Of a stretch of 64,000 bases of DNA, positions 5,358 through 64,000 are shown in pieces (position 1 is the first letter of the stretch; each line of letters opens with the position of its first letter). The stretch is from Cymbomonas tetramitiformis. Its lineage: Eukaryota; Chlorophyta; Pyramimonadophyceae; Pyramimonadales; Pyramimonadaceae. The notes beneath the pieces were generated by a model. The model made no database searches, was not told the origin of the DNA, and saw only the letters and a list, made by a program, of their open reading frames with translations. Location of the stretch: positions 1 through 64,000 of the forward strand of contig LGRX02034702.1 in NCBI GenBank assembly GCA_001247695.2, given 5' to 3'. The translations under genes and the position numbers were made by a program.

Positions 5358-5503
5358 AAATCTGACAAAGGCTCTCTGGCCTGAAGTATGTGCCTACTTT
5401 GTATTCTGGACGTCAGCCACCCTCAGCACTTCCCGCCACTTGGCTCTCAACCAAAGAGTAGGCTCTGCACACTCTGCAGCCCCCCTTCTCCCCCCCGGTT
5501 AGC

Positions 5504-12100: not shown

Positions 12101-13252
12101 ACGGGTATTGCCTCTGTGAGGGCGTCGGGGATTCGTCTGCGGCTCGCTCTATTTATGACTAGTGCCTTAGGGCGTTTTCACCTGTTTGGGGACTGGTGAT
12201 TGCCAGCCACATTATGGGGTACTGGCATCTCGTTGTTAACGGGGACGGTCACTGGAGTGGTTTGGATGATGGGATGTGGCTGTCCCTGTGGTGCCCTTTT
12301 GACGGGTACTGCCTCTTTGAGTGCGTCGGGGATTCGTCTGCGGCTCGCTATGTGGGGGTGTCTTGGACTCGTCTGACGCTTGCTCCCTCTCCGTGTACAG
12401 TGCTCATGGTTAATACACATGCTGGGGGACTCGTGTTTTTTGACTCTGATATGAGGTACTGGCGCATCGCAGTGAACGGGGACGGCCGCCGGTTGGAAGT
12501 GGGTTTTGGGAGGCGGTTGTCCCTGTGGTGCCATTCTGGCAGGCACTGCCTCTTGGAGAGCTTGGTGGATTCGTCGGCCTTTGCTGCAAGGAGAGGCAGA
12601 GGGTGGTGTAGTCCACCTTTTGTGTCTTCCCTTGATTTTTGTGGGGAGCATTGAGGTGCCCGCAATTTTAGACATGGCGTGTCCATGCTATGTGGTGTGA
12701 CTGCATTCATGGCATAAAAATAACCATGGCCCAATGGGTCCCAAGCTTCGACCGTGAACCTCTGGGGGGGCATGCCAGCAGCGTTTGCTTACTCCGTTAC
12801 CCAGGGACCAACAACTATTGTTGTTATGCTGATTGGTCGATCATCATATCATCTTTCCATGCTGTTTTGCATCTGGGTTGGGGATATTTATGCGTTTGTG
12901 GTATCTTGTCACGGACCCGCCCTGCTCTTGATTTGCTTCTCATATCCACTGCGATGATGGTGAGCTGGCTTTTGTTGGCCAATCTCATGCCGTTCATTGT
13001 GTTGGGTCCCATACATCGACCGTGAGCCTCTTGGGGGCATGCCAGCTTACTCCGTAACCCAGGGACCAACAATTATTGTTGGGCGATGATCGGTCACATC
13101 GTATCATCTTTCCATGCTGCTTTGCATCTGGGTTGGGGATATTTATGCGTTTGCGGTATCTTTTCACGGCCTCGCCCTGCTCTTGATTTGCTTCTTATAT
13201 CAACTGGGATGGCGGTGGGCTGGCTTTTGTTGGCGGATCTCATGCTGTTCAG
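9166..13252 (+). repeat. Array of diverged repeat units ending at a host splice acceptor
   Basis: At least eight copies of a ~190-280 bp unit are recognisable, with approximate starts at 9850, 10505, 10960, 11225, 11445, 11640, 12735 and 13010. The unit includes the words atctttccatgctg, tttgtggtatcttgtcacgg, ccactgggatgatggtgggc and ctcatgccgttcagtgtg. Interleaved are units with tcggggattcgtctgcggctcgct and ttaacggggacggcc (9444-9850, 11990-12720) and copies of the 158-bp unit from 1666. Each main unit ends in a pyrimidine-rich ...ttcag, and the last ends exactly where the first certain host exon begins (13253). I infer a long intron or 5' region expanded by duplication. The ORFs here are repeat artefacts. 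Confidence 0.75.
9396..9424. repeat. GT dinucleotide microsatellite
   Basis: About 14 GT units sit inside the repeat array. Shorter GT runs occur at equivalent places in neighbouring units (10489, 10772, 11420), so the microsatellite grew from a GTGTGT stretch that belongs to the repeat unit itself. Confidence 0.85.
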
Positions 13253-15333
13253 TGTGTGTTGGGACAGTGGTGGAGACTTCCTACGTGACCATTAACAACA
13301 TAACAAGTGGCAGCGTGCACGTCAGCACGTCAATTGCGTGGACCTCTGCACACCTCGCCCAGGGCGCATCCCCGAACGCCTTCCTGAGAACAGCCATGGA
13401 CGATCCGCCAAGCATCTTCATCAACAGCTCCCTTCTCAATACGCGACCAGTGCACACAGGCGACATCATGGCCGCTGGCGCCGCCGTGACGGTGCCTGTG
13501 TCGGGCTTCCCGCCGCCTCATGCACCCCCGCCCTCACCCTGCACCACCGCCCCTCCCCCTTGCTACCCGGGGGTGACCTGCGTCGACGCTCTTTCCACGA
13601 CTCGGGGGTTCCTTTGCGGCGGGTGTCCTACAGGGCTTGTTGGAGACGGCACAGTCTGTGAGGATGTGGATGAGTGTGCTGCCAGTGCCGGCGTTGACGC
13701 CCTCCTGGCGTGCGATCCGCTCACCACCTGCACCAATCTGCTGGGCGGGTTCGAGTGTGGTCCTTGCCCTGCGGGCACGAGCGGCTCTGGGGACACGGCA
13801 TGTGTGGATATCGACGGCTGTGCCACGGCGCCCTGCTTCCAAGACACACTCTGCGAGGATGTGGCGTGGCCCGGAGTGGGCGTGGTGTGTGGGCAATGCC
13901 CTGATGGTTATGATGGAGATGGGCGTGTTTGCGAGCCCAAGCAGTGCGAACCTGGGCCGTGCAGCCTTGACCCCTTCGTGCCGTGCACCACCCTACCGGG
14001 GGGAGGGCGGACGTGCGGCCTGTGCCCAGCGGGATATGTGGGTGATGGCGTGGTGTGCGATGACATTGATGAGTGTGAAACAAACAACGGCGGATGCCAC
14101 GCTCTAACCAGCTGCACCAACACGCATGGGGGCCGTCTCTGTGGGGACTGCCCCATCGGATTCACCGGCAGTGGGTACTCCAAATGCTATAACAGCACAC
14201 GGTGTGCGGAGGACTATGGCGGCTGCGACCCGCTGGTTGAGTGCGTGGACACTTCGCAAGGCCCCCGGTGTGGCGCCTGCCCGGCAGGTTACAAGGGGGA
14301 CGGGTACTTGGGCTGTGTGGACATCGACGGTTGCCTGGAGTCCACGTGCTTCCCGGGGGTGCCCTGCGAGGATATCCCGGCGGCGGAGGAGGACGGGATC
14401 CATGGCACCGGGCATCGGTGCGGCGCCTGCCCGACCGGTATGATAGGGGATGGCATTCACTGCACCGATGACATGTGCTTCTGGCTGAACGGCGGGTGCG
14501 ACCCTGGTGTGGCGTGCGTAAACGATGCCGCAGCGCCGGGCGGGCGGATGTGCGGGGCGTGCCCGCCGGGGTACACCGATGAGTTTACTGGCCAGGCCAG
14601 CGAGCAGTGCTTGGATGCAGATGGGTGCCTCGGGGCGCCGTGCCCCGGTGGCCGGATGTGCAGCGACGTGGCTGCGGTGGAGGAGGCAGCATTCGGGGCG
14701 GCATACATGTGCGGGCCCTGCCCCCAAGGCTTCCTGCAGGTCGGAGAGGGGTGCGTGGATGTGGATGAGTGTGCCGTGGACAATGGCGGATGCTGGGTAG
14801 CGCCGGCAGACGATCGTGTCAAGGCGCCCTGCGTGAACTCCCCCGGCGGGTACACCTGCGGGAGCTGCCCCGCTGGGATGCGTGGCTCCGGGGCTGGGAA
14901 GTGCGTGCCAGCCACCACCTGTGCGGTGGAAAATGGGGGCTGCTGGGTGGGTGACGGGGCAGCAACAGGCCTGGCTGCCTCGTGTGAGGACAATGCGTAT
15001 GGGCCGGCCCAGTGCGGGGAGTGTCCATTAGGTTTCGAGGGCAGCGGCGCCTCCAGCTGCGTGGACGCGGACGGGTGCGGGCCGGAGCCGTGCTTCCCTG
15101 GCGTAGCGTGCACGGACGTGCCGGCGCCCGGGGAGGGCTTCACCTGCGGGAGCTGCCCGGAAGGCTTCAGGGGCGACGGGGAAATGTGCACGCTGTGCCG
15201 CCCTCGTGTGAGCATCCAATACACCACTGCGGTGCAGGGAATCGTGAAACGAACAGGGTGGCACCGGGGGGAGCGCGTGATGATTGGCGGCGAGAACCAG
15301 GGCCTTGATCATCCTGCGTGCGTTAATATTGAG
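13253..15333 (+). CDS. Host gene exon: EGF-like repeats
   Basis: The acceptor is after ctgttcag and the donor is GAG|gtgtgc, phase 0. The first ~90 codons (ETSYVTINNITSGSVHV...) form a beta-rich segment of the GSV.V type often found ahead of EGF units in algal proteins. A Pro-rich linker follows. Then come about twelve Cys-rich units of the pattern DVDEC, then TC, then G.CP.G..G.G..C, including calcium-binding-type starts such as VDECAVDNGGC and DIDECETNNGGC. The exon ends with a non-EGF segment (PRVSIQYTTAV...HPACVNIE). The open frame continues past the donor into a solo repeat. The long antisense frames here are shadows of the Cys-rich code. Confidence 0.88.
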
Positions 15334-18300
15334 GTGTGCAGCCTCTTCCCACCCCGGAAGGCCCCCAGCTCACGCTTCCCCTCCACTTCCTTATCTGGTG
15401 TACAGCAGGGGAAGTACTTCCCAGGAGGATAGATTTCCGAGGTCCAGGTGGTGCTCATAAGCACCATTTTTAGCATGCAACATTCAACATTCATCAGCAA
15501 ACATTCACACAACAAACTGACAGGTACTTCTAGGGAGGTGGGAGGCAACAACTAGGTTGCAGAAGAGTCAGCCCAACTGCAGGGTCTTACGATGACCTGC
15601 AAGTTCCATACCCCAAGGGAGTGGTGGGTGTGGGGAACTTTTTGAAATTGGTAGACTCGGAGCCCGAAGTTCTTGCAGAATGAAGTGCTTCCGGCTGTCT
15701 AAGCAATTTCAAACTGCTGTCGACAACCTTTCACATTCCACCCGAACCTAACAGACACTCCGTGTCTGTCCGTCTACTGGGTCGCTCTGCGTCCCACAAC
15801 TTAGACAGCACTCTCCGAGTGCAGTGTCGCAGCTCCGCTGTGACACTGTCATCGATCCAGACAACCAAAGAGTCTCCGACTCAACTGGAGAGTCTCCGAC
15901 TCAAAAACAGTCGACCAATCAGAAACCAGAAAAGTCGTACTGTCAAATTTTTCGGAACTCCGTCCCGAGAAATTCTGTAACTAAAAAAAAAACCGCAAAA
16001 AATTCACAGTTCCTCGCCGAGCCTCGGGCTCATTTTTTGTGGGTCAGAAACTTCCTCCTCCTTACTCTCCGAATAATCGAAAAAATAGATTTTCTCAATT
16101 ACTCACACCTAGAGGCTCGCGACGAGCTGCATCCGTGACGACAAGTGCGAGGAGGCTGCAACGGGATCATTTGCTCGCTGTAGCTGCCGGCCTCTCCCGG
16201 GCTTGGAAGTGGGTGGGTGTGTATTTCCTGTGTTGTTCTTCGTGCATTAGGTGGAGCGACATGTTTTGTGCCCATGCAAGAGCAACGGTGCAGTGTGGAA
16301 AGAGCTTCTGGTGACTCCACACTAGCTGAGCTACCTCCACTTTGTTTGTGCTTGTCCTCAGACCAATTCTCTTGGCTGCACTATGCACCCACACCGGGGA
16401 TGAACGGATTTCTTCGGGAAACTTTGTTTGCTTGTATGCGGGTGTGATACGCGTTTGTGATGGTGCTCCTCTGAGCTCGGTTTTGGATATGTTGAAGTGA
16501 ATGGTCTGATCATGGCCCCCGCCTGTTTGTGAATGCTTCTCACTTCCTCTTGGATGATGATGTGCTGGTGTCTGTTGTCGCTGCTTTGGCTCTTCTCATC
16601 CCATTGCCACCCAGGCACACTACAAAACTTTTTATCGAACATAGCTTTCTGATTACATGCTTTGAGTGTTTGAGAGAACATCTCTTTGTTTTGATATATT
16701 GCTGATTCACAGCCTCACAAGCGCTCTACACTCACCCCCTCCCCTCCCAGCAGTGTCTCCCTTGGCTCTCTCCTTAAGCAAAGGACGCATCTGTATGAAA
16801 TTCCTCGCGTGGGCTGCACACGAGAGGCTGAATGCTTCTCGCATCCACTGTGATGATGGTGGGCTGCAGGCGAGAGGCTGAATGCTTCTCGCATCCACTG
16901 GGATGATGGTAGGCTGCCTTTTGTCGCTGAGCCTCTTGCCGTGCAGGGTGTGGAAGTCACATCATGCCGTGCTTTGGGTACGAAGTGCTGTGTCATTCCA
17001 GTTTCTGATCAAGAATGTGTGTTCTTTGTCCGGAGCAGTCATGCTGTAGGGGGCTTGATGATGCACCGCTGGCGCTCGGTGACGGGGATGCTCCCAGGGA
17101 ATGCGATTCTGGTGGACTGGGGCTTCATCCAGCGGTGCGACTTTCATGTTGGATGATGCGACCAATAAGGCAGACACGCTCACGTTGAACATTCCCAAGG
17201 CGGACCTCCAGGTGGACAAAACCTACACCTTCCAGCTCCGCGCGGCACTCATCAGCAACCCGCAAATTGCGGCAGCGGCTACTGCTGTGACGTTCTATGT
17301 CAAATCCCAACCTCTGGAGTTGGTGCTTCGCGGCGGCGAGGTGCCCCTCCCCCCAACCCGTCTCGCCCTCCCTGCTGTGAGCAATCATATTATCTGTTAT
17401 ATTATATATTGTCTGTATTTGTTGCCCGAGGCTGCCACCAATTTTGAACAGAATCATTCGTGTCACTTTCTGCTTTCCACTTCCACCTTCTTCCCGAAGA
17501 ACTTGCCATGCACCCCCGATGCAGATACGCATCACTCAGGCGCATGCGGCCCGACCTTCAAGACCCATCGCACAAAGGATGGCACGGCGAGCCCATGGAG
17601 CTTATCACGGGCACGGGCGGTTTGGTAGGTGGTCACCGGCGAAGGCTCTCCAATTGTGCTGGATGCCGGGGAGAGCGTGGATCCGGATGGGGAGACCGGC
17701 GACATCCAGTTCACGTGGAACTGCCTTGGGAAGCTTCGTGCCAGCGAGTGCCACTACGTAAATGGCACCAGGTTACCGGCGCGTCTACACGGCCCAGTGG
17801 TGTCCTTGTTCCTCAGCGGTGGATATCCGCCCTTGGAGTACACCTTCGTAGTGGTGGCCAGCAAGGGCAGTCGCAGCTCGTTTCTCTCCACGTCGGTGCG
17901 GGTCCAGATGGGGCGACCGCCAGTGCCACAGATCACCCCAGTACCAGGGCGGATTGCACCTGGGGAGAAGCTGCGTCTGCGCAGTGAGGTCACGACGGCC
18001 GCGGACGGCGCCCTGATGTATGAGTGGTCGGCTGTGGCGGAGCGGAGCACGCACGCGCTGGCGCTTCTCCCTGGCCCAGACGGCACACTTGCATGCGCAG
18101 GCACTCAGCAGCAGAACCTCGTGCTGCGGGAGCACACGCTGGTGGCCGGTGGAACTTACACTTTCCAGCTGGCGGTTCGCGATGTATATGGCGAGGGCTC
18201 AGTCCAGCTGACGGTGCAGGTGAATGAGCCTCCGACGGGAGGATGGGTGCAGGTAACCCTGTCGTCTCCCTGCACCGCCACAGGATGCTCATGTCTTCTT

Positions 18301-21300: not shown

Positions 21301-24300
21301 GGAAGACCTGCGGTGTCTTGAAGACCGCTTCGAGCTCCAAGTGCATGATTTGCAAGTGGCGCAGCTCGTCACGCCAGAAACCTCTCGCCTCCAGCTTGAG
21401 GTTGAGTACTACCCCTACGCGAAGAGGGAAGGCTCCGTGTGCATCTTCGCCCGAGTTGGACACCTCCAGATCTTCCACCCGTTCCACCTGCACTGCTCCC
21501 GAAGGTGCTTCCACTGCTCGAGATTGCCAAACGACCGTCTCGTGAGCTTCACCTTCGCCCCCGAACTCCTCTTCTTGGCCAGCACAAAGTAAAGTTCCCG
21601 TAGGTACAGCCGGGCTGCGGGCACTCCCAGGTACACCGACTGACACAGCCCGTTGAAAGCAGCCAGCTTTCGTGCCGGGACCCAGTCGTGCGTCGCTCTG
21701 GAGAAGCTTTGCACAGAAGGTCGGTGGCCTTGGAGATAATCTTGTTGAGCCGTGTCTGCATGACGCGGAAGACGCCCTCTTTCAAGTTCACTGCTAGTCC
21801 CAAGTGCTCCACAACTTGGACTGAAACCACTGCCCCTTCTTCACATTCTGCCGAAGGCCTAAGCGATTTAGCACACGATCCACACGTTGCCGTAGCTCGT
21901 ACGCCTCCTCCTCGTTGCCCGCCACCTGTAAAAAATGGTTCACGTACGGGAAGACTCTTGCTTCATAAGGTCACCGATCCCGTTTATGCTGCCCCCGCAG
22001 CGCGCCATAGTAATTCCCATCATCGTGATTTCATGCTTTCATCGTCATATGAAACCTCCACAGATCCTGACGGTCCCTGATCGCTATCGGTGAAGGTAAC
22101 ACCTCCGCCAGGACCTTCATGAAGTTGACGAAGATCCTTGGTGAGTCATTCCACTTGAAAGGAAGCGCGCTGCACTGGTAGAGCTCGCCTCGGACGTCGA
22201 ACTGCATGAACTTCTGGAAGTCCAAGATGATTCCCACACAGTAGTAACTTGCCTTGAGATCGAAGGGAAAACACCGTTCTGCCTCGCCAGGTGTCGTTTC
22301 TTGAGCTGCAGTTTCTTGAGCGTCTACATCTTGCATCTTGACTCCCGACAGAAGGTGTTGAGCCACCTGAAGTCATACACAATTCGCAACGGATTTGAGC
22401 CTATTTTCAGGGCAATAAAAATACGGGAAACGTACTCGAGTTTGGCTTCACCCACGTTCAATTCTCCATGTGCCGCTTCGTCTCCTCCTCCAGCCAGGTC
22501 TGCTGAGTCGGGGATAGATCCTGCAGCGACACGCTGTGGTCGAACGATGCAGGATGTCCTCGAAGCCAGTCGATCTTCGATCCACGCGAGACCCACTGCA
22601 GAACCTCCGCACTGACGCCCTCCGCGCGCCAAGCTCTCTTCTATGGCTGTAATCTCTCCTGTAGAGTCAGTCGGCTCCTTCCACCCGGCCTCCGCAGCGA
22701 AGGCTGGAACCGGGCAGGATGGTGCCAGGCACATTAATGCCCGGTGTCAGCCACATGCCTAGTTCCGTCTGCGCCCTTTCTACGTCCGTGTCTAGGTTGA
22801 TTTGATTGGGTCCTTGAGGTTGAGCTGCCGGCTCCTTCATGATCACACCGCTCCCATCCCTGGAAACGGCCACCACCACCAGCTGCTCCTTTTGTTGCCT
22901 GCTTCGCGTTTGTGTTCATCACTGCACGTTGCCGACAGCTGTTGAAATACTGGAGCCACTGATTGCAAATCAGTTCTGCAGCAAAGCCGTCAGAGTTGTT
23001 GCAATTCTTCCCCTCCATTGAAGCCAGCTTCGCCTTCAGCGCCTCCGGCCCCCAACCACCCGTTGACTAAATTCGCATACTTGAGGTGAACCTTCTTTTG
23101 TTCTTAAGTATGTGATAGTTTAAGACCGAGGTACAGGCGAGGAGAAATTATGTTCTTCTGACTCTGAGGGGTCTAAACAGCTGAGCAGTAAGTTAAACTA
23201 TCAAAAACAAAAGAAAGATTTAAGTGTCAACACGAATTCAGCTTGAAAAGCAGGGCTGTGAAGAGAACACAGCAGGACAAACAAGTGTACGCTTGAAATT
23301 AAAGTGCAAGGTTCTGAGAAATAGAAAGATGTTCACTTTACAATGTTCATTCTGACGCCTACACTTTCAATTTGACAAGCAAAGAAGCACGGCAAAGCAC
23401 AGGAAGATCGAATCTTCTTTTTGCTTGTCAAATTGAAAGTGTAGGCGTCAGAATGAACATTGCAAAGTTAACATCTTTCTATTTCTCAGAAACCTGCACT
23501 TTAATTTCAAGCGTACACTTGTTTGTCCTGCTGTATTCTCTTCACAGCCCTGCTTTTCAAGCTATATTTGTGTTGACACTATTTTTTTCTTTGATAGTTT
23601 AACTTACTGCTCGGCTGTTTAGACCCCTCAGAGTCAGAAGAACATTATTTCTCCTCACCTGTACCTCGGTGTAGCAACGTCCTCACCAAGTTCAGCTCGG
23701 GTGCTGCTGGACCGACAGATTTGTTTGGGACTGAACCTGCTGCTTCATCATCAGCTTTTGCTTGCTGGTTGTCTGATCCTCCGGCCATCACGTGTGCTTC
23801 CTGAATACCTGATATAATCTACATGAGGGAAAATATGTCGAGAAACTTTTGCGGTGTGCCCATACAGGATAACCAAGAAAATATTTGATAAAGAGCTTTT
23901 GCTTGAAAGTGCAAAAGAACAGAGCTAACTTCATGTCTGTTCAAACTCCTATGTGTAGTCTGTGACTGGATGGCGGTCCTCTCGGAGGGTTCGAGCCGTT
24001 GCCGGTCTCAGACAGGCCGCACAGCTCAGGCCGATTGCAACAGTATTGTGAATCCACTAAAACTTCATCGGTTCCAATTGAACAGAATTCGGGCCTGCAG
24101 TGTGTGAGAATTACTCTAGAGAGGTTTCAGGAATGAACTGAAGATATGCCTGGTGACTGAGACAACTAGATACTCCACATTTCTCATGCGAGAACAATAA
24201 ACACTAGCATAAGAGGCACCGTGCTTTGAATCCCAAACCGAAGTGCCTTGGGGGCACAGGATTCGGCGCACAGGACAAGTGGAGAATGGAGGGGAAACTG

Positions 24301-49870: not shown

Positions 49871-49979
49871 AAGATGTTAGGAATGTATCCTAAAGTGCGG
49901 ACTAGTGGAGGACATAACCTAAGTTACGGATACCGTTCTCGGAATCTTAAACTCGAAGAACAGCTCATGAGTACACCGC

Positions 49980-51190
49980 GAAATTTTCGTCGCGGTTGCG
50001 GGACGCACGCCAGCGGTTCAAGATGGCGCAACAGCGACAGTGAGAACGGTTTGGCGAACGCCACACGCAGCGCCGGTATGCAGTAGGCGATATGGTGTCC
50101 ACCGATGTCAGCAAGCATTTGACAGAGAAAGTGATGAATCGCTCGCCATGTGCAGGAAGCTGAGCAAGACGTGGCATGCCCCGTTCCAGTGGTGGAGCGA
50201 ATTTTCAGTGAGGCACATCAGATGGAACTCGGACGCCGAGGCTGCCAAAGGAGCACCGCGGTGGCGCAGGTTGAAGGTCCCACCCCACAGGCGCATCCAT
50301 GATGCCTTCGCGCAGCACAGATTGGAGCCCTGTGCCCGTATATATGTCAGTCAGGCTTCTTTTGCAGAATATGACTCACTCGCGGCGGGTACCAGAGGCA
50401 GTGGTAGTAGACGGATAGAACGAGGTGCACTCGTATTAATCACATGTGACGTTGGCGCGTAGAGTGCGTGTGGTTCGTGGAAAATGAGGTAAAAGAGTGG
50501 ATGGTGAGTAGGACCGGATTCTTCAAAGTTCATTACCAGTAGAGGACCAGGAATACAGTGGGATGTGGAGCACTCCTCCAGCACTTGACAGATTATTGAA
50601 GCGGCCCGATTATGCATATGGTATCGAAGGTTCGTGCTGAGGCAGTGAGATGCAGAGAGCAACGAGGGTGGCATGCAGCACAAACAAGATCATTATTCGT
50701 TGAGCTGATCATCCTGAACCTCTGCGATGAACTGACTTTGAACGCTAGATTGCCATCCACCTATCCTGTAAGCATGCCGAGGTCCTGGAAGATGAGAGTC
50801 TGGTTTTAGTCATAGAATTGTGAGCAGATTGACGTTCCGGAAGTCACCACGCCTCGCATCGTGTTAGTGTTGTTCAGCGGTACAGGTTGAGTGGAGCCGG
50901 AATTGTGCGTTGTTTTCCTGTTTCAGTCACTGTTACTTTTGACGCTATGGCGGCCTAGCAGCCCACATATGTAGCAGACATCCTGCAGTGGTACTACCAC
51001 CAATATTTGCCTTGCCGCGTTCCCTTCAATTTGAGACCCTCCAGTCTTCCATGTATCTACCATGCGTTTTGGGCAAAGTGGGGCCATATGCCTGGGCAAT
51101 GTTATCAATAAATTGGGAGGCCAATATGAGTTGCGGTACAAGGAGTTCCTCCAGTTCATCCATTTGGGAGAAATATCAATATGAAAATAT
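49980..51190 (+). pseudogene. Decayed chromovirus: integrase tail followed by C5-methyltransferase fragment
   Basis: At 49997-50100 the frame ARQRFKMAQQRQ.ERFGERH, then YAVGDMVSTDVSKHL, parallels VNLQMAQQRMMEQFDARH and VNDQVWVDGQHL of the better element at 62600. At 50165-50345 KLSKTWHAPFQ and LKVPPHRRIHDAFAQHRLEP match LRHGPLRV and LELPVHWKVHDVFTADRLTP. At 50862-51000 VLVLFSGTG, then DILQWYYHQY, match ILVLFCGTGS and DILHWNYKLY of the C5-methyltransferase at 63336. Stops and shifts are frequent. The same domain order in a second, independent copy supports a real fusion family. Confidence 0.72.
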
Positions 51191-53989: not shown

Positions 53990-56187
53990 GGAGACCCCAC
54001 GTATTTTGTGCGTCCACCCCACGCGTGTGTATTTTGTGTGTCCGCCCCACACGTGGGGTGTTATGACGTAATACAAATCACATCCGATGCGCATCGATCG
54101 GTTTATGACTGGTCGATCGGTACATAACATTCGATTGCACGACACAACCATTCTAGTTATAATCAAAGACTAATACTTGAGCCTTGTTCATTTTTGCACA
54201 GATTTGTAACCATGTTGCATGTGGATTATGAAAACATTTTTTTTCAACGTTCGTAACTCACATAGATATATTATTTAGACTCCTAGGAATTGTTTGGGCT
54301 CTTGATTGTGCCATCCGTGGCCGCATCAGCTCAGTTTGCAGTCGCGACTGCGAGCTAAGCTGATAAACCCTTATCACTTTCATGCACAACGGATGAAATC
54401 TCAAACAGCGGCGGGGTTCTCGTGCGTTCTAGCGCACGAGACTTGGCACAAATATTTCTAACAGCAATATTGGTGCACCCTCAAACGCACAACCTCTGAT
54501 GTAAGCTATGCGCAATACGCATGCTGCACATCATGAGGCAGGTTTGGGTTTGGGTTTGCATGTGCCCAAACCCAAACATGCCAATGAAACAGCAAAGGAC
54601 TTCCGGCGAGTTCCAGCGCACGTAACTTTGCAAAATATAGTTCTAAGAAGTATATATTTCATATTTCTGAAGTGCAAGGTTTGCGATAGCCTGTGCGCGA
54701 AGTTAACATACTATTTCTTTGACCCAGATTTACGAGTTTGAATATCACGCTAAAATCTGTGTCAAAGAAATAGTTATACCATTTTGCGCACAGACTTTCT
54801 TAGACCTTGTGCTGCGAACACGTCAAAGATGCATATCTTGTCAATATTTCTACGCAGTTGCGTGCGCTAGAACGCACGGGAAGCCATTTGCTGTTTAGCA
54901 TGAATTGGGTTTGGAAACATTCGAACCCAAGCCCAATAGATCTGCCAAAGAAATAAATTGATAGTTTTGCCAACAAGTTATCTCAGGCCTTGGCCTTCTG
55001 AGAAATGAAAGATATATATCTTATAAATATTTGTGCATAGTTTCGCGCGCTATAACGCACGGGAAGTATTTTTCAGTTTGGCATGTATTGGGTTTGGGTA
55101 CACTCGAACCCAAACCCAATAAATCTGCCAAAGAAATAATTTGATGGCTTCGTGCACAAGGCTTTTGAGACCTTGGGATTTTGGCGACTAAGAAATATAT
55201 ATATCTTAATAGTACTTTTGCAAAGTTACGTGCGCTGGAACTCGCCGGAAGTCCTTCGCTCGCTGTTTGGCATGTTTGGGTTTGGGTACATGCAAACCAA
55301 ACCCAAACCTGCCTCATGATGTGCAGCACGCGTTTTGCGCATAGCTTACATCAGAGGTTGTGCGTTTGAGGGTGCACCAATATTGTTGTTAGCAATATTT
55401 GTGTTAAGTCTCGTGCGCTAGAACGCACGAGAACCCCTCCGCTGTTTGAGTTTGTATGCGATGTGCATGGAAGTGATAAGAGCCTATCAGCTTAGCTCGC
55501 AGTCGCGACTGCAAATAAACTGAGCTGATGCGACCACGGATCGGCTCAATCAAGAGCTTAAAAAATTCCTAGGAGTCTAAATAAGATATCTATGTGCGTT
55601 ACGAACGTTGAAAAAACGTTTTCCTAATCTAATTTACTCGCAAACAGTGTGGGGTATAGATGCAGTGAAGCCTTAAACGGTTTTCACATACTCAAAGGCG
55701 CTTCCGAAAGCACACTACGTCCGCCGGATCGAAAAACGGACGGCGCTAGGCGATTTCAAGGTATGGTTTACTGGAGGTCGACATTAGCATAAAAAAATGC
55801 AGATCTAGATCTCGAGATATATGTGTTTTTAGTTGGTGCTTAAGTATGGTTAAGTATGGGAGATTGCGGAACGGTATCGACCATAACTTCTGCATGCCTT
55901 AACCACTTGACTCCCCGAAGTGCATACTATGTTTAGATAGGTTCAGCCAACCTATTTATCAAATAAAAATATTTGAAAATTTTTATGCTAATGTTGACCT
56001 CCAGTAAACCATACCTTGATTTGCTCGCTCCTGCGGCATTCGTCGTGCACAGGTCGTGCATCATCTTCGCTCGGACAGGAACCGATATTACATAATACAA
56101 TTATTGTATTATACCCCACGTGTGGGGCGGACACACAAAATATACACGCGTGGGGTGGACACACAAAATACGCGGGGTTTCCACACG
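53990..56187. repeat. Large composite inverted repeat with internal ~190-bp satellite units
   Basis: The outer arms 53990-54072 and 56100-56187 are reverse complements (ccccacacgtggggt, acccca(c)gcgtgt, ttttgtgtgtcc). The inner arms 54225-54720 and 55180-55635 are also reverse complements over hundreds of bases (caacgttcg, ctcctaggaattgtt, gcagtcgcgactg, cgtgcg.tctagcgcacga, aggtttgggtttgggt). Between the inner arms, ~190-bp units with tgggtttgggtacactcgaac and ctgccaaagaaataa repeat head to tail. The whole could fold into a very long cruciform. There are no convincing ORFs. Confidence 0.78.
55757..56018. mobile_element. Small non-autonomous TIR element (262 bp)
   Basis: Terminal inverted repeats of about 39 bp (caaggtatggtttactggag and its complement at 55999-56018) have one mismatch. 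GATTT occurs at both outer edges, allowing a 5-bp duplication with one ambiguous base. The interior is AT-rich, with no ORF. It sits inside the larger inverted repeat 53990-56187. Confidence 0.7.
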
Positions 56188-56610: not shown

Positions 56611-57718
56611 CTATCGTTGGGTTAGCTTAGATCAGTTGCGTCGTATACACACCGCATTTCCTTGGTGTGGAAATGCGCCTAGGTACCACAGCTCCGCATG
56701 ATTGTGTCCAATCAACCAAACGTCCGCAGCCAGGCCATACCGCCCGCACGCTCAACTCCTAGCGGAACCCCTCACTCCATCCCAAGCGTCGTCGTTTAGC
56801 CAATGTCCGCAGTGTCTGAAAAAAGAATGCGTGGGTCCAAACCTGTTAGATATGACACTTAGACAAAAGACAATGATACACCTACAAAGGCAGTTTCTCA
56901 GAATGGTGATAGAATAAGTTCAGTTGCCCGTTAAGTGGCAACACGGGTTTAGGGTTCAGGCCTGGTGACGGTCACACACCCTACTATAGGAAGTGACAGG
57001 TGACATATTGGTGTGTCACAGTGCTACTTCCAACAATGATGTCCGCCACCACCCTCGATCCGCTGGCCACCGACGACGAGGACATTGCACCGCCGCAGCC
57101 TCCGCTTAGGCCTGGTTGTGGTAGGCCTATCCCTGGTTTTGGCTGATCCCTACTCACCAGCTCGATGGTGTGTGCACGTTTTGCGATTTGTGCCACGGCC
57201 GCCCCACTCACCGCGCCACAGGCTTTGGTGGTGCTGGTGAGGGCACATGCACGGCCCCACCGGTCGGTGGTGCCGCAACGGGACGTTACATTGGTTCCGT
57301 GGAACCATCCTTGACCTCCACGTCACCTTTCAATCGACGATCGGGGTTTGGGTACTCCGTCATTTTCTCCCACGCAAGATTATTTGCAGGGTTTGTCGCG
57401 GCATGCCGCCCCGCCACCGGGCTCTACGGTCGGTGGTGTGCTGTCAGACATTGCCGGTGCAGTTTCGGGGGACCATCTGGTACCTCTTGCTCATTCATTG
57501 ACCCCGTGGACTTCTTCAATGACTACTTCAACATCGACGGCTTCGCCATTTTCTTTGGCACATGAACATGAAGCCGGGCAAGGGGGCAACCTTTCATCCA
57601 AATGGACCTCTGTTGTGGCACCGGCTCTCCCGGGCATTTCATAGTCTCACTAATATCAGCGCAGTGGAAGCGTGGTGGGCCCATAACCTCATAGTCTCAC
57701 TAATATCAAAGCAGGCTC
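56611..57718 (+). other. Region upstream of the chromovirus RT; gag not identified
   Basis: A short Met-started frame at 57041 (MSATTLDPLATDDEDI) and a Cys-rich word (CTFCDLCHGRPTH, 57173) could be gag debris. No aspartic protease motif, primer-binding site or LTR could be recognised. 56989-57030 contains a short inverted pair (ggaagtgacaggtgac / gtgtcacagtgctacttcc). Confidence 0.35.
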
Positions 57719-57739
57719 GTGGACCGCGACCACAAATCG

Positions 57740-58690
57740 CCGCTGCGCGTGGACCCCGAGTACCGTGATGGCGCACGACATAAGAGGTGCTACAAGCTGC
57801 CCATGGAGGAGTTGCGACAACTTCGTGGACAACTGGACGAACTCTTGGCGAAGGGATACACGCGTCCCTCGTCTTCACCTTGGGGCAGTCCAGTCTTGAT
57901 GGTGCCCAAGCCCTCGAACGCTAAGAAGGAGCTACGGCTAGTGATTGATTACCGCCAGATCAATGAGACAGGGCACAAATCTTCCTAGAATGACTCTCGG
58001 CCCGGAATCAAGAAAAAGACGTGTTTTTGCTAATTTTCAAATGTTTTCCATACTTAAATCGATGAAAAATCGACCGGCCCGCTTTCGGCCCGGAGCTCCT
58101 TTTGGGCGCTGCTCTCGGCCCCGGGCCGGCCAATCCCCATAAGATATGTTCCCTGCAATGATATCGCCGTAAAGGACCGTTATCCTCTTCCCGATATGCA
58201 GTCTCTCATTGATGATCTGCAGGGAGCGACTATCTTCTCCACCGCGGACGCTCTGTGGGGATTCTGGCAGGTACCCATGGAGGAGGACGCAATGACCACG
58301 CCGTTCGGAGCTTATGAATGGCTGGTTATGCCCATGGGGTTGTCGAACAGTCCTTCTTGCTGGCAACGTATGATGCAGAGCTACCTGGAACACCTCTCAT
58401 TCGTGAGGGTGTTTGTCGACGACATCATGATCTTCAGCAAGAATCCAACTGAACACCTCGGTCATTTGAAGCAGGTGCTGGAGGTCTGTCGTCAGAACAA
58501 GGTCCGGCTGAAGGAATCGAAGCTGCGGTGCTTCAAGCGCTCTGCACGGTTCCTCGGGCACGTCATTGATCGTGAAGGATGCCGACCCCAGCAGGACAAG
58601 ATCGCAGCGGTGAGGGATTAGCCCAAGCTGGAAACTGTCAAACATGTGCGACAGTTCCTGGGTCTGGCCGGTTTCTACCGCCGGTACAAT
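57740..58690 (+). pseudogene. Chromovirus reverse transcriptase domain
   Basis: It contains YKLPMEELRQLRGQLDELLA, SPWGSPVLMVPKP and LRLVIDYRQIN, then, after the MITE, VKDRYPLPDMQSLID, FSTADALWGFWQVPM, YEWLVMPMGLSNSP, the active site FVDDIMIFSK and ARFLGHVID. All catalytic residues are present. After IAAVRD a TAG replaces the expected Trp, then PKLETVKHVRQFLGLAGFYRR follows in frame before a shift. Confidence 0.88.
57969..58155. mobile_element. hAT-like MITE (187 bp) inside the RT domain
   Basis: The ends are cagggcacaaatctt and aagatatgttccctg, imperfect inverted repeats beginning CAGGG. The flanks are caatgaga (57961-57968) and caatgata (58156-58163), an 8-bp duplication with one difference. 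Ignoring the insert gives an uninterrupted RT frame across ATC AAT GAG ATC GCC GTA AAG. CA(A/G)GG ends with an 8-bp duplication are typical of hAT transposons. The interior has a GC-rich stretch of ggcccg words. Confidence 0.85.
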
Positions 58691-58699
58691 CATCCAGGG

Positions 58700-59265
58700 G
58701 TTCTCCGATCTGGCTCACCCATTGACCAAGCTGACGAAGAACTTAGTGCCCTGGGAGTGGGGCCCAGAGCAGGAGCGGGCGTTCGAGCGGTTGAGGACGG
58801 TGCTGACCACAGCCCCTACGTTGATCCTTCCAGATCAGAAGGCAGCTCATGATGGCACCAGCCCATTCGTCGTACAGACGGACGCTAGTGCGGTAGCACT
58901 GGCTGGGGTACTGATGCAGGACCTGGGGAAGGGCCTGCAGCCGATAGCCTTCGAGAGCAAGCAGTTCTCATCAGCAGAGCAAAACTACCATGCCGGGGAA
59001 CGGGAGTTAGCAGCGATTCATCGCTGCACGACTCAAACGTGGAGGCATTACCTTATCTTCACGGAGTTCCGCGACTCATGGGAGACCACGCGCCGCTGAA
59101 GTGGCTCTTCGCACCAGGCCGGGAACTCAGCAGGCGACAAGCGAGGTGGTACGAGGACCTGGTGGAGGTGGGCGTGCATGCGATGGAGCACGTGCCAGGG
59201 CGCACGCTGGTGGTGCCGGACGCGGCCTCTTGCCGACCAGACTATGTGCAAACCTCAGCAATAGA
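58700..59265 (+). pseudogene. Chromovirus RNase H domain
   Basis: FSDLAHPLTKLTK and WGPEQERAFERL are followed by VQTDASAVALAGVLMQD, LQPIAFESKQFSSAEQNYHA and GERELAAIH. After a shift near 59070 come GDHAPLKWLFA and RRQARWYEDLVE. These are the expected connection and RNase H blocks of Ty3/gypsy pol, with catalytic Asp and Glu kept. Confidence 0.85.
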
Positions 59266-59880
59266 GGGGCTCAAGGAGGCAGGATACGTGGACCTGAGCA
59301 CCGACCAGCCAGTGTCAGCTGAGGACGGAAGGCGAGCAGCAGGTGCCAAGGGGAAACCAGCGGAAGTACCCAAGGCCAAGGCTGAGGTGAATGCAGCGGT
59401 GGAAGAGAAGAAGGAGGAGAAGGAGGACCCTAGCTCTCCCTCGGATGCGGGGTTCAGCTCATCAGATGAGGAGGACGAGGAACACCCACCAGTGAGCCCT
59501 CCAGTGGTGACAGGGAAGCTGACGCAGCTCAATAATGGACTGTGGTGGGCGGAGACCCCCGACCTGTGGCGCGACGCTATGGACACAGTAGCCACGATGG
59601 CGGCGGCTTCTGTCTTCGCGGACGTAACTACTAGAGCGCGGCGAGCGGTAACAGCAGAGCAATTAGCAACAGGTGATGACTCAGCGTCTCCCTTGGATGC
59701 AGAAGCCGTCTTGTCAGAGACACCCCCAGCAGCACAGCCGCCCGCGACAGTGGCCCAGAAGCCAGCAGCAGAGCAGCAGCAGCCATCAGCAGCAGCGCAG
59801 CAGCAACCAGCAGCAGCAGCCGAACAACCGCCAGCGACAGCAGCAGAGCGGCAGCAATCAAGTCCAAGGATCCGACCCGG
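59266..59880 (+). CDS. Low-complexity linker between RNase H and methyltransferase-like domain
   Basis: It is in frame with the RNase H end. It is an acidic/Lys-rich stretch (EEKKEEKEDPSSPSD, SSSDEEDEEHPP), a middle with LNNGLWWAETPDLWRD, and a Gln/Ala/Pro-rich run (PAAEQQQPSAAAQQQPAA). It is disordered by composition. The long antisense Ser/Ala frame here is its shadow. Confidence 0.6.
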
Positions 59881-60370
59881 AGGACCGCTGGTGGACAAGC
59901 AGGATTGGAAGTTGATCTCATCGGAGTTCGCTAGGCTGCAGAGCAAGTACTCTAGAGCACTGGGAGGACCGTTCCAGGTGGATGCGTGCTGTGACGCTAT
60001 CGGCCAGAATCGACAGGTGAGCACATTCTGGACTGATTGCTTGAACGAGCAATGGAGGGGCCGTATCGTCTGGTGCAACCCCCCCTTCTCAGACCCCAAC
60101 GCGAGCATTGAGGACATTCTGCGACACTACGCATCTGAGGCGAAGCAGGACCCGTGCCACACAGCCGCCTTGTTCTTATTGCCGACTTCCCTCATGCGAG
60201 TTGGCGACCGTTGCTACGCGAGTTTGGCCTGGAGATCGTGGAGGTCATTCCAAGGGTGAACGAGCATGGTGAGCCCAACAGACTGTTTACCTCACCTGGA
60301 GAGGAGAGGGGTCACCGCTCGGCTCTGCAGGAACTGCCAGTCCCATGGCCAGTGCTAGTAGTAATAGCCA
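59880..60370 (+). pseudogene. Adenine-methyltransferase-like (NPPF) domain within chromovirus pol
   Basis: It reads FQVDACCDAIGQNRQVSTFW, EQWRGRIVWCNPPFSD and ALFLLP; then, after a one-base shift near 60190, FPHASWRPLLREF, VIPRVNEHGE, RLFTSPGEERG and WPVLVVIARP. The VDACCD start, QWRG...CNPPF box and later FTSP word match the DIRS-group element at 5504-6349 in the same order and spacing. NPPF is the motif IV of Dam-type amino-methyltransferases. I know this domain from DIRS-type elements, not from chromoviruses. Confidence 0.8.
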
Positions 60371-60639
60371 GGCCACAGAAGCCACCCAGCAAGCTGGCCC
60401 CACGCGAGAGACCCACAGCGCAACCAGCAGTCACGCTCTCCGGAGCAGCAGCGAAGGTCAGAGATAAGTCGGGGACAGTGGAGCCAGGGGTGTTCTTGCG
60501 GGCGCTGAGAGCTGAGCACAGACGCAGCGAATATCTCAGAACCCTGAAGCAGGAGTTGCTAAACACCCAGCATCATCATCGCACAGAGCATTTCCGGCTG
60601 GTAAGCGACATCATCTGGAGAGTGGCTGCGAAGGGCGCT

Positions 60640-62640
60640 ATCAGGTCGTACTGGCGCCGGACTCGCCCTTGCGGGAGCTAGTGTTGAGAGAGGCTCACGA
60701 AGCACCGTCCGCAGGCCACACCGGCAGGGATAAGACGCTGGAGCGGGTCCGAAGACGCTTCTGGTGGCCGCGAATGGACCTAGATGTAGCAGAATGGGTG
60801 AAGACGTGCGTGACGTGTCAGCAGACCCAGCCGCGGCAGGGGTATCCCATGGGACTGTTGCAACCGCAGCGAGTGCCTAGCAGACTCTGGGAGGTGGTCA
60901 GCATCGACTTCGTAACCGGGCTTCCGATGACTCAGCGAGGAGTGAACGCCTTCACCACCTTCACCTGCAAGCTGAGCAAGATGGTACATGTGGTGCCAAT
61001 GACCTACAACGGCAGCTCAGCAGAAGTGGTGGTAAGATTGTTCATGGACGCAGTATGGCGATTACACGGAGCCCCCATGAATGGCTACTGCCCGGTGGTA
61101 TGGTACTGTCACAAGTACCAAAATGTATGCTTTATTATGGGCACTAGATGGGGTGTATGAGTCCCATGAAGGTTTTGAAAAATCATCTAGGACCCTTTTG
61201 AATTGTTATTGATGCTGAAATGTACTCTCGTGAACTTTAGGTATGTGTATGTGCGGTGTGCTTTTGGGGGGTGTAACGCCATAAAATTAATTAAATTTTC
61301 TGGTACTGTCACAAGTACCAAGCGCGCGGTGACTTAAAAGGGCACGCTATGTGGCGTTGTGGCCACGAGGTGGCATGCATGATGTCAAATTTCATTATTG
61401 GGATGTATCCTAAGTGGTCGTCATGCGTTGTGCCATTTGAACGTCTTTAACGCCAGTATTGGGATTCGATAACACCCAAGGGTGTGATAAAATGGCCTCT
61501 CGGCATTTTTTGTAGTAATATCGGGAGCGGTTTCGTACTTAAGTTCCATGTGCAGAGTCCAAGTACGGCAACTTCTCATGCATGTAAAGGTCTTGAAAAA
61601 TCGATATATGGGTTTACTTTTGATGTCATAAACGCTGGTGAGGCGATCCGACGTTATAATATACTTATTTCGTAGCTTTAGTGCCACGACTAGGCTCCAA
61701 AATCGACGATAGCCCTCATACTTAAGGAATCTTGAGTAGGACCATTTGGTGGAGATGGGATGTTTAGCATGTCGCAGTTTCAGCGACGGGCAGTATGCCA
61801 ACTGCCCCATGCTCACATCCATCATTGACCATGTTATACAGCTTCAATTTGAGCCATCGCTGGGTTGAATAGAATCCCAAGTCTGTTCAAAAGGAAATCC
61901 GAAAGTAGCGCCATGATTTCGAAGACAAATGAGACACCATTGTGTAACACAAAACTCCACCTTGTTGGCAATATGCATCCACTGGGAGGGCTACACGTAA
62001 CCTATGGACCAATGGGGCATAATACAACTCAGTTTGGGTCGTTAAGATAATGGTATATCATGGATATCACCATCAGGATGGAGGAGGACATCAAAAAAAA
62101 TTCTAGCGTTTTGGTACTTGTGATAGTACCAGATTCGATTCTGGTACTATGACTAGTACCACTGGGCAGTAGCCATGAAGATAGTGTGTGACCGAGACCC
62201 CCGCTTTCGCGACACCATGACTCAGGAGTTTATGCGACTGATGGGCGTCAAGGTAGCTAGCACCACTCCCTATCACCCTCAGAGCGACGGGCAAGCGGAA
62301 CGCAGCAACCACACCGTGGAGCGCATGCTGCGCTGCTATGTCGCTGAGAACCAAGAGGACTGGGACCTCTGGGTGACACCTGTGGAGTACGCGATCAATG
62401 ACTCCACGTCAGCGGCGACTGGATTCTCTCCCTTTGAGTTGGTGTACGGACACGCTCCAGCGACGCAGCTGGACTTCTTCATGGACGCAGCTTTGGAAGG
62501 CGGGTCAAGACGAAGAAAAGGTGGGCGAGTAGCTGCGGACAAGAGAGGGACTGCGCACGAGCTGGCCAAGCAGTTTGCGCGGCAACTACAGGCAGCGCGG
62601 GTGAACCTGCAGATGGCCCAGCAGCGCATGATGGAGCAGT
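60640..62640 (+). pseudogene. Chromovirus integrase, split by a DNA transposon
   Basis: The zinc-binding HHCC domain is EAHEAPSAGHTGRDKT...FWWPRM...CVTCQQTQ. The core starts VVSIDFVTGLPMTQRG with the first catalytic Asp. After the insert at 61082-62174 the core resumes in frame with KIVCDRDPRF (second Asp) and STTPYHPQSDGQAERSN with the Glu in QAERSN. It continues LRCYVAENQEDWD, FSPFELVYGHAP and QLQAARVNLQMAQQR. All catalytic residues are present once the insertion is ignored. Confidence 0.88.
61082..62174. mobile_element. 1.1-kb non-autonomous DNA transposon in the integrase domain
   Basis: It is flanked by ATGAA at 61077-61081 and 62175-62179. Terminal inverted repeats are tggctactgcccggtggta and its near complement taccactgggcagtagcc. 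Subterminal palindromic words ggtact(..)agtacc occur at 61104, 61302, 62112 and 62142. There is no long ORF and no transposase, so it is non-autonomous. Ignoring it rejoins the integrase frame (CCC ATG AAG ATA). The superfamily is not assigned; a 5-bp duplication is unusual for common families. Confidence 0.85.
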
Positions 62641-62984
62641 TTGACGCGCGACACCGGCTGCAGCACATTAATTAAGGTGAATGATCAGGTATGGGTGGAT
62701 GGCCAGCACCTGACTCTGCCTGGAGATCGGGGGTTGAAGCCGAAGCTGCGCAAGCTCAGGCACGGCCCCCTACGCGTAATAGAATGTCTGTACAGCGACA
62801 GGCAGCAAGAGCTGCCAGAGCAGGACCATGGAGCTCCGTCAGCGTACAGGTTAGAGCTGCCCGTGCATTGGAAGGTGCACGACGTGTTCACAGCGGATCG
62901 GCTCACCCCAGTTCAGTCGGGAGCTAAGCACTTCGTGAGCAGGCAAGAGGAAATGGCACCGCCACCGGTCTTGGTAGAGGGTCA
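62641..62984 (+). pseudogene. Chromovirus integrase C-terminal beta-barrel region
   Basis: VNDQVWVDGQHLTLPG, LKPKLRKLRHGPLRVIE and YRLELPVHWKVHDVFTADRL are the GPY/F-like integrase tail of Ty3/gypsy elements. A TAA at 62673-62675 and a small shift separate it from the preceding part. A decayed relative is at 50050-50345. Confidence 0.8.
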
Positions 62985-63140
62985 GAGGGAGCGTGAGGTG
63001 GAACGCATCATCAGCACTCGCTTCAGGAAGGTGGGAAGGCTGGCGGGACAGTGCAGGAGTGGCTAACTAAATGGAAAGGGCTGCCGCATAGTCACAGCCA
63101 GTGGTGAACCAGAGAGGACTTGGAAGGTCGAGGGGACAGG
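62985..63140 (+). pseudogene. Chromodomain, frameshifted
   Basis: REREVERIISTRFRK is followed, after a shift near 63045, by VQEWLTKWKGLPHSHSQW, a TGA in the place of the second Trp, and TREDLE. V(E/A).I...R......YLVKWKG....WE is the chromodomain pattern, so this element belongs to the chromoviruses, which use such domains to target methylated histone H3. Confidence 0.78.
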
Positions 63141-63335
63141 CTGGAACCAGTGAGAGTCTTCGAAGCTGAGGAGGAAAGGATGAAGAGGGCTCCAGAGAAA
63201 AGGCGAAGGGAGACTCACAAGGGTCAGGAGGAACAGAGGGCACAGTTGATGGCAATGGGACCTCCGACCCCGACAGTCCACAGCAGTAGCCAGAGCCGAG
63301 CTTACCAGCCTCACCTCTCGAGAGTGCAGCACCCA

Positions 63336-64000
63336 GTTAGAATTTTGGTGCTGTTCTGCGGTACCGGCTCAGTGGAGCAGCAGTTCCAACGTCAGTTCAG
63401 GGACTGCGAGGTAGTAACAGTGGACATCCTGCCAAAGTGGCAAGCCACGTGCACGGAGGACATCCTTCACTGGAACTACAAGCTCTACCCACGACATCAT
63501 TTCGACGTCATCTGGGCCAGCCCCCCCTGCAAGGAGTACAGCAAGGCGAAGACACTGGGGGCTCCAGATCTGAAGCTGGCGGACAGGCGCGTGCGGCGTA
63601 CCAGGGAGATCATCGAGTTTTACGACCCTGCGTATTTCTTCATAGAAAACCCCGCTGGCGACGCGCTGCGAGGGTTGCACACGCGCCCCGTGATGAAAGG
63701 TCTGCCAGAGCCGCTGTTGACCACCTATTGTAAGTATGGCACACCATACATGAAGCCAACTCACATATGGACAAATGCAGCGCCTTCGGTACCCTTGTTG
63801 CTGTGCACCCACCCGACTCCCTGCCCTGCGCGAGCAATGCTAGGGAGGCACGAGAACACTGCCCAGGGGGGCATCTCCTCGCACGGCCAACACCCGCGGT
63901 ATGGGTTCAGCCCAGGCGGTATATGCGATACCTCGTGCGTTGCTGCACCACCTGTTTTGCGAGCTGAAGCTGAACGAGCGCATGAAGGAGGAGAGCGCGC
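63336..64000 (+). CDS. Cytosine-C5 DNA methyltransferase domain fused to chromovirus pol (partial)
   Basis: After a charged linker (EAEEERMKRAPEKRRRE) the frame reads ILVLFCGTGSVEQQF (motif I, SAM binding), VVTVDILPKW, DILHWNY, HFDVIWASPPCKEYSKAK (motif IV with the catalytic Cys in PPC) and YFFIENPAG (motif VI, ENP). LLTTYCKYGTPYMKPTHIWTN, a block near the target-recognition part in viral and algal C5-methyltransferases, follows. A one-base shift near 63916 precedes a plausible C-terminal AVYAIPRALLHHLF. No stop before the window edge. Catalytic motifs I, IV and VI are intact. I infer methylation of the element's own or host DNA. Confidence 0.85.

Follow-up and report, generated by a model that had tools for sequence, protein, structure and literature searches.

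Can a single retrotransposon carry, within one polyprotein, a chromodomain together with two different methyltransferase domains, one of adenine type and one of cytosine-C5 type, or do such domains merely lie side by side where unrelated insertions have accumulated? The question is raised by the end of a 64,000-nucleotide stretch of the green alga Cymbomonas tetramitiformis (GenBank assembly GCA_001247695.2, contig LGRX02034702.1, positions 1 to 64,000, forward strand), hereafter called the window. The initial annotation, made from the sequence letters, had described such an element, a chromovirus, at 57,719–64,000. An element is indeed found there, a subfamily A copy of a Ty3/Gypsy-type long terminal repeat (LTR) retrotransposon, but the part present begins at 57,714, and the copy extends beyond the window as far as a 3′ LTR (contig positions 64,357–65,094). 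Across its relatives, what the comparison shows is one predicted pol frame with both domains, few amino-acid changes and recent insertions.

The window copy was mapped with pieces of L113, a long-frame subfamily A copy used as reference, to which it is 85–95% identical (blastn against the window and L139), while Pfam was run on the separate open reading frames of 57,719–64,000. The announced domain order (reverse transcriptase, RNase H, a domain with the motif NPPF, integrase, chromodomain, C5-methyltransferase) was borne out by Pfam, apart from the chromodomain, which has no Pfam match in this copy and was located through its homologue P0034 only. The profile search proposed at the same time placed both methyltransferase families above their cut-offs in the window, PF05869 (Dam) with 29.0 bits against 28.1 and PF00145 (DNA_methylase) with 23.9 bits against 22. 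The features are as follows:

57,714–64,000, + strand: element copy, subfamily A, from blastn of L113 pieces; continues to contig position 65,094.
57,901–58,585, + strand: reverse transcriptase holding an insert of ~187 bp at about 57,969–58,155 (RVT_1 6.8e-24 downstream of the insert; limits from L113).
58,770–59,175, + strand: RNase H, shifted in frame near 59,072 (RT_RNaseH_2 4.8e-26, RT_RNaseH 1.8e-19).
59,894–60,381, + strand: methyltransferase domain of Dam-like (N6-adenine) type, with the motifs DACCD and NPPF; its frame changes near 60,150–60,184 (PF05869 1e-6; tblastn with P0122 and P0134, frame 2 then frame 1).
60,669–61,081, + strand: zinc-binding domain of the integrase and the beginning of its catalytic core (PF17921, Integrase_H2C2, 8.2e-24; P0034 match to 61,091).
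61,081–62,176, no strand: insert with 20-nt terminal inverted repeats, splitting the integrase (inverted-repeat pair; 5-nt flank overlap).
62,175–62,675, + strand: rest of the integrase core, where the frame shifts near 62,671 and then runs into a stop at 62,675 (P0034 95.8%, P0006 94%).
62,676–62,990, + strand: SH3-like C-terminal part of the integrase (SH3_Tf2-1 3.1e-5, below cut-off; P0034).
About 62,995–63,131, + strand: chromodomain, split by a frame change (63,030–63,048) and by a stop (63,105); placed by tblastn from where PF00385 lies in P0034.
63,336–64,000 and past the window end, + strand: C5-cytosine methyltransferase domain with motifs I (CGTGS), IV (SPPC) and VI (ENP) (PF00145 3.3e-5; alignment A1).

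This copy is a fossil, a decayed, 5′-truncated and frameshifted retrotransposon. It begins abruptly, sequence upstream of 57,714 giving no match to earlier parts of the element, and its 3′ LTR is 85–91% identical to that of L113. In-frame stops lie at 58,621 and 63,105, and the frame also changes near 58,650, 60,627 and 63,881, the last of these leaving the C-terminal motif of the C5 domain in another frame. The integrase insert, of ~1.1 kb, is bounded by inverted-repeat arms of 20 nt each (61,081–61,100 and 62,157–62,176), and its flanks share five nucleotides of element sequence (388–392 of the L113-piece query on both sides), an overlap that fits a target duplication.

A copy so crowded with inserts and frame changes might well suggest that unrelated adjacent insertions have given the false appearance of a fusion. 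Copies elsewhere in the genome speak otherwise. A search with the C5 frame, in which 134 of 8195 candidates were scored, so that its counts are lower bounds, returned frames of 2485–2490 codons in at least 24 of the 134 rows, 23 of these 24 without a stop inside the match (hand count). Each of the eight long-frame subfamily A copies fetched is a single frame of 2488 or 2489 codons, with reverse transcriptase, RNase H, Dam, integrase, chromodomain and C5 domains at the same places. A second search, with P0122 (117 of 7393 candidates scored), uncovered a subfamily B, with frames of 2552–2577 codons in 15 of the 117 rows (hand count); all eight stretches fetched, chosen for their 2563-codon frames, hold Dam, integrase, chromodomain and C5. 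The initial annotation had named copies lacking one or both methyltransferase domains, with breakpoints of separate insertions, as the finding that would undo it. What was found instead was the fused order in 8/8 copies of subfamily A, 8/8 of subfamily B and one contig filed under a foreign organism, the frames being unbroken in subfamily A and in that contig. In addition, chromodomain and C5 are joined in 16 of the first 120 C5 protein relatives, as judged by a chromodomain profile built from seven of these same proteins, with Pfam's precomputed PF00385 label on part of them only. Young copies with unbroken frames point to one real element and no pile-up of neighbours; chance neighbourhood was rejected, and we leave it practically no probability.

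Truncated copies exist too. Leaving the window aside, 10 of the 19 top-ranking rows were examined at the 1-kb stretch expected to hold Dam; it matched as protein in five copies and as DNA only in one more, with no match in the other four. In these four stretches, no piece of RNase H or integrase matched either, and they are read as truncated or rearranged copies.

The full-length relatives with LTRs for which a search had been suggested were also found. Scanned as six in-frame pieces, L113 gave Pfam matches to protease (4.2e-9), RVT_1 (2e-33), RT_RNaseH (6.5e-28), Dam (3.3e-7, 30.6 bits), H2C2 (3e-20), rve (1.9e-8), Chromo (2.5e-8) and DNA_methylase (5.5e-5), protease and SH3 being observed in this single profiled copy. 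No LTRs were seen in the 10-kb stretches or in the 3-kb pieces upstream of them; they proved to lie further upstream. They are ~637 nt long (TGTACTAGGG...CAACCGAACA, with TG..CA ends) and 99.7–100% identical within each of five copies. Target duplications of 5 bp flank all five copies followed upstream (read by eye); measured from the start of the first LTR to the end of the second, four of them span 14.77–14.81 kb and the fifth 15.6 kb. The region that separates pol from the 5′ LTR contains, in these five copies, repeats and another long frame, open across the whole 3.1-kb piece (1033 codons) in two and over 555–845 codons in the other three. Presumably this frame is gag; a Pfam scan of two such pieces (L123, L140) gave just one weak match, below the cut-off. 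The internal repeats of this region allow alternative alignments shifted by about 100–120 nt (L123–L130), and a 48-nt tandem repeat lies just 3′ of pol, its repeat number varying among near-identical copies (L113, L114, L120).

The assignment to Ty3/Gypsy rests on the RVT_1 and RT_RNaseH profiles, the domain order and the LTRs. It agrees with the protease of L113, the order reverse transcriptase, RNase H, integrase in 8/8 copies, and the LTRs with their 5-bp duplications. The chromodomain stands at the C-terminal end of the integrase (PF00385, 2.5e-8 in L113 and 9.3e-6 in L081, the foreign contig). Gypsy lineages with a chromodomain that are not chromoviruses have been reported (PMC12477816). 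A chromodomain-bearing Ty3/Gypsy pol with adenine-type and C5 methyltransferase domains is what the unbroken frames of the long copies support.

Is the pair of domains maintained? Between subfamilies A and B (L113 against L131), synonymous divergence (pS) is close to saturation while amino-acid-changing divergence (pN) stays low: pS 0.83 and pN 0.13 for Dam, 0.78 and 0.13 for C5, 0.69 and 0.07 for the chromodomain, and 0.72 and 0.04 for the integrase. Over nine A–B pairs, the mean nonsynonymous distance (dN) is 0.145 for Dam and 0.142 for C5. The window copy differs from three A copies by pS 0.24–0.25 and pN 0.017–0.019 in C5, and by pS 0.20 and pN 0.009 in Dam. Within subfamily A (28 pairs), mean pS and pN are 0.0042 and 0 for Dam, 0.0178 and 0.0008 for C5, 0.0147 and 0.0013 for the reverse transcriptase, and 0.0151 and 0.0012 for the integrase. 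With so few amino-acid changes at near-saturated synonymous sites, both methyltransferase domains look as if they are kept by selection. RNase H stands apart (L113 4401–4727 against L131 7–336): its pS is 0.34 with zero amino-acid changes, the other four domains being near saturation, a low divergence that is a sign of recombination between the subfamilies.

Both domains have the features expected of enzymes. In the C5 domain, motifs I, IV (PPC) and VI (ENP) are present, none of the 34 rows of alignment A1 departs from the Cys of PPC or from the Glu-Asn of ENP, and the modelled fold is that of a methyltransferase like DNMT3 or M.HhaI. By structure, the nearest match is DNMT3 (about 14% identity), whereas the sequence profile comes nearest to Dnmt2 chains; the tree described below held no Dnmt3. 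The Dam-like domain carries NPPF, matching (N/D)PP(Y/F), and PF05869 scores above its cut-off in L113 as it does in the window. Fold models, catalytic motifs and the scarcity of amino-acid changes favour working S-adenosylmethionine (SAM)-dependent enzymes. Both domains might instead have lost catalysis and be retained in the polyprotein for structure or for nucleic-acid binding. Many DIRS-type domains have lost the catalytic asparagine, and P0139, P0146 and P0151 deviate strongly at motif IV. Yet NPP[FY] is present in 21/25 Dam cores, the C5 residues named above do not vary in A1 and few amino acids change in either domain, which makes such a role improbable. In another lineage, the Dam-like domain of P0151 (motif NSPW) occupies a different polyprotein place, directly upstream of a retroviral-type aspartic protease.

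Where else does the combination occur, and from where might its parts have come? Among the 120 protein relatives listed of 249 matches, those that bear an organism name belong to C. tetramitiformis; the best identities reach 85% over part of the query, and 78–79% over 70% of it. The foreign contig, L081, is filed under the bacterial metagenome-assembled genome TMED86, which we take to belong to a Mediterranean Tara Oceans set. Its 1257 codons without a stop comprise the end of RNase H, Dam (27.5 bits, below the 28.1 cut-off; VWCNPPY), H2C2, rve, SH3, Chromo and C5. The C5 domain is 43% identical to P0002 (tblastn) with motifs SGTGS, SPPC and ENP, while PF00145 was not listed by Pfam for this frame at E 0.01. 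L081 is read as a misbinned eukaryotic contig with a retroelement frame. Behind that frame, 4187–6724 of L081 holds 846 further codons of a frame that is still open where the locus ends; it matches PF10275, an otubain-like family, weakly (E 0.005, below cut-off).

Dam-like domains linked to RNase H or integrase also occur in P0127, P0130, P0134, P0140 and P0150. The gene model P0139, which has Dam and chromodomain, overlaps P0020, which has chromodomain and C5, over 68 residues at 84% identity; a further subfamily thus probably carries both methyltransferases. In the window, 49,954–50,665 (+ strand) holds a decayed integrase C-terminal part with a chromodomain, nearest to P0139 and P0020; C5 queries gave no match behind it.

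As to the origin of the C5 domain, neither a single C5 protein nor, for Dam, alignment A2 found relatives on viral contigs; alignment A1 found 588, the best 80 at 29–37% identity. A tree of 130 rows was built by a quick method and without bootstrap from 104 of the 120 proteins and 26 of 77 viral-locus enzymes, the 26 being matched over 195–254 aa. Thirteen chromodomain-fused and four Cymbomonas-labelled rows fall in one clade of 33 rows (SH-aLRT 98). The other 16 rows of that clade have no chromodomain in the available sequence, some perhaps being cut frames, and others, P0062 and P0071 among them, are apparently free-standing C5 enzymes. Of the 26 IMG/VR rows, 25 form one distant group, and the remaining one also falls outside the clade. 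This topology fits one capture of a small free-standing C5 enzyme. A direct bacterial source was considered and rejected, since of 12 genome-contig relatives, 11 are 28–39% identical and the twelfth, at 43%, is the retroelement L081, taken as misbinned. For the Dam-like domain, descent from DIRS elements and the reverse were both set aside, the 22-row tree being too weakly supported for either direction.

A second retroelement, at 4434–6349 (− strand) of the window, has a first frame whose start resembles RNase H (by eye) and which includes a Dam domain (PF05869 3.4e-7, NPPF) related by tblastn to that of the 57,714–64,000 element. Its second frame has no Pfam match and contains HSFRRGGAT...GDW...Y, a motif by which it looks like a DIRS tyrosine recombinase. 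Further along, a frame at 13,114–15,432 (+ strand) encodes 772 aa that include several EGF-like domains; it is probably a host gene. About 550 nt at 23,125–23,670 match their own reverse complement at 88.5%, and 54,224–55,629 is a foldback element with two inverted arms of about 510 nt, 86.5% alike, and weaker direct repeats inside.

How does this element compare with known ones? Among the closest is KnitGypsy-Dnmt3 of Klebsormidium nitens, likewise a green-lineage Gypsy pol frame with a C5 domain under purifying selection (PMC5890265). That domain is reported there to be of Dnmt3 descent, whereas the present one is of a ~200-aa type with phage relatives. Moreover, the C5 domain here follows a chromodomain and is accompanied by a Dam-like domain, while the word “chromodomain” is absent from the main text of that paper. 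In the same source, as far as available, C5 enzymes are described in Symbiodinium LINE and DIRS elements and in Klebsormidium Gypsy, and adenine methyltransferases are named for DIRS only. The Dam-like PF05869 domain is known in DIRS (PMC3783388, PMC6338049), in a pol that also holds reverse transcriptase and RNase H. DIRS elements, however, use a tyrosine recombinase and have no DDE integrase; here, a DDE integrase (H2C2 and rve), LTRs and 5-bp duplications place the element outside that group. A review groups DAM- and DCM-encoding Ty3/Gypsy and DIRS elements, those of green algae included; the portions at hand assign Dam to DIRS and C5 to Ty3/Gypsy and DIRS, and describe no single element with both (PMC6338049). 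From Cymbomonas itself, whose published assembly measures 914.3 Mb in 35,945 scaffolds with 15.3% LTR elements, Chlamyvir-related chromoviruses have been described (PMC10675990). They share the chromodomain and the Ty3/Gypsy pol, but the main text of that report does not contain the word “methyltransferase,” and the element here has two. Orchid Ty3/Gypsy elements have captured a nucleic-acid-modifying enzyme too, an m6A RNA demethylase domain, yet this is an eraser and not a writer (PMC9289625). Both methyltransferases in one LTR pol were not found described in the full-text literature searched, where most preprints and subscription journals are not represented. Retrotransposons carrying one or the other domain have been described; their union in one chromodomain-bearing LTR pol appears to be what is new.

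What would an element do with two such enzymes? The initial annotation had supposed that it may write DNA methylation at its copies or at target chromatin, a chromodomain reader being joined to two writers. A tentative answer, whose chances we put at slightly under even, is that two SAM-dependent methyltransferases methylate the element's complementary DNA (cDNA) and/or the DNA at the insertion site. The polyprotein would yield both enzymes, these would travel with the particle and the integrase, the double-stranded cDNA and/or the insertion-site DNA would become methylated, and new copies would come with the mark in place. The C5 domain, which follows the chromodomain without a gap at the end of the integrase, would be best placed for acting at the target.

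Several observations weigh against this answer. The aromatic cage of the chromodomain looks incomplete: in the Cymbomonas domain, by eye, one cage tryptophan is kept, whereas the HP1 Tyr24 site looks like Arg and the third aromatic site like Leu (HP1 alignment and numbering). With two of three cage aromatics seemingly missing, methyl-lysine reading is doubtful; L081 has His and Phe at the same two sites (by eye). A mutational footprint of 5-methylcytosine (5mC), sought in transitions and in observed/expected (o/e) CpG, gave no clear signal, except perhaps in the short LTR. Against L113, 19 copies have transitions of 3.35% at CG, 2.73% at CHG, 2.41% at CHH and 4.59% at A/T, and the window copy 6.5%, 2.6%, 4.3% and 7.7%, respectively. 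The L113 pol frame has a CpG o/e of 0.70 and the window element one of 0.77; for window positions 1–53,000 the value is 0.74, and for the LTR 0.45. Finally, the modelled fold of the Dam-like domain is closest to PCIF1, an RNA-cap methyltransferase, and at E 1 or better the Dam profile had no sequence match among PDB chains. Could this domain then be an RNA methyltransferase, acting on cap-adjacent or internal adenosines of the element's transcript and aiding its stability or packaging, with only C5 acting on DNA? The fold by itself cannot separate DNA from RNA methyltransferases, and both the profile and the phage matches (weak, E 6e-3) point to the DNA enzyme family PF05869; we regard the RNA role as unlikely.

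Alternatively, both methyltransferases might shield the cDNA from nucleases of the host or of giant viruses, much as in restriction-modification, the mark not being a chromatin signal. Chloroviruses encode site-specific endonucleases and carry both N6-methyladenine (6mA) and 5mC, and two writers for two bases would fit the blocking of several cutters. An Algavirales giant virus and polinton-like viruses are reported in the Cymbomonas genome (PMC10675990), and antiviral roles of transposon methylases have been speculated upon (PMC6338049). Against this, cDNA enclosed in a particle may be little exposed, and the probability of such a shield seems low to us.

Methylation of the element's cDNA and/or of the insertion site is what we retain, at the strength given. 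In its fullest form, which we consider rather doubtful, the element would write 5mC and 6mA on its own cDNA and on its landing site by means of writers joined to integrase and chromodomain, and this would be an old trick, shared among elements of more than one marine protist. If true, each new copy would have an epigenetic state of its own from the start, or would pass for modified viral DNA. Why would a selfish element bring along enzymes of the sort by which such elements are usually silenced? The question is an open one, and a young, high-copy element with near-identical LTRs, long open frames and both domains, in an alga sequenced by nanopore (PMC10675990), makes it directly testable.

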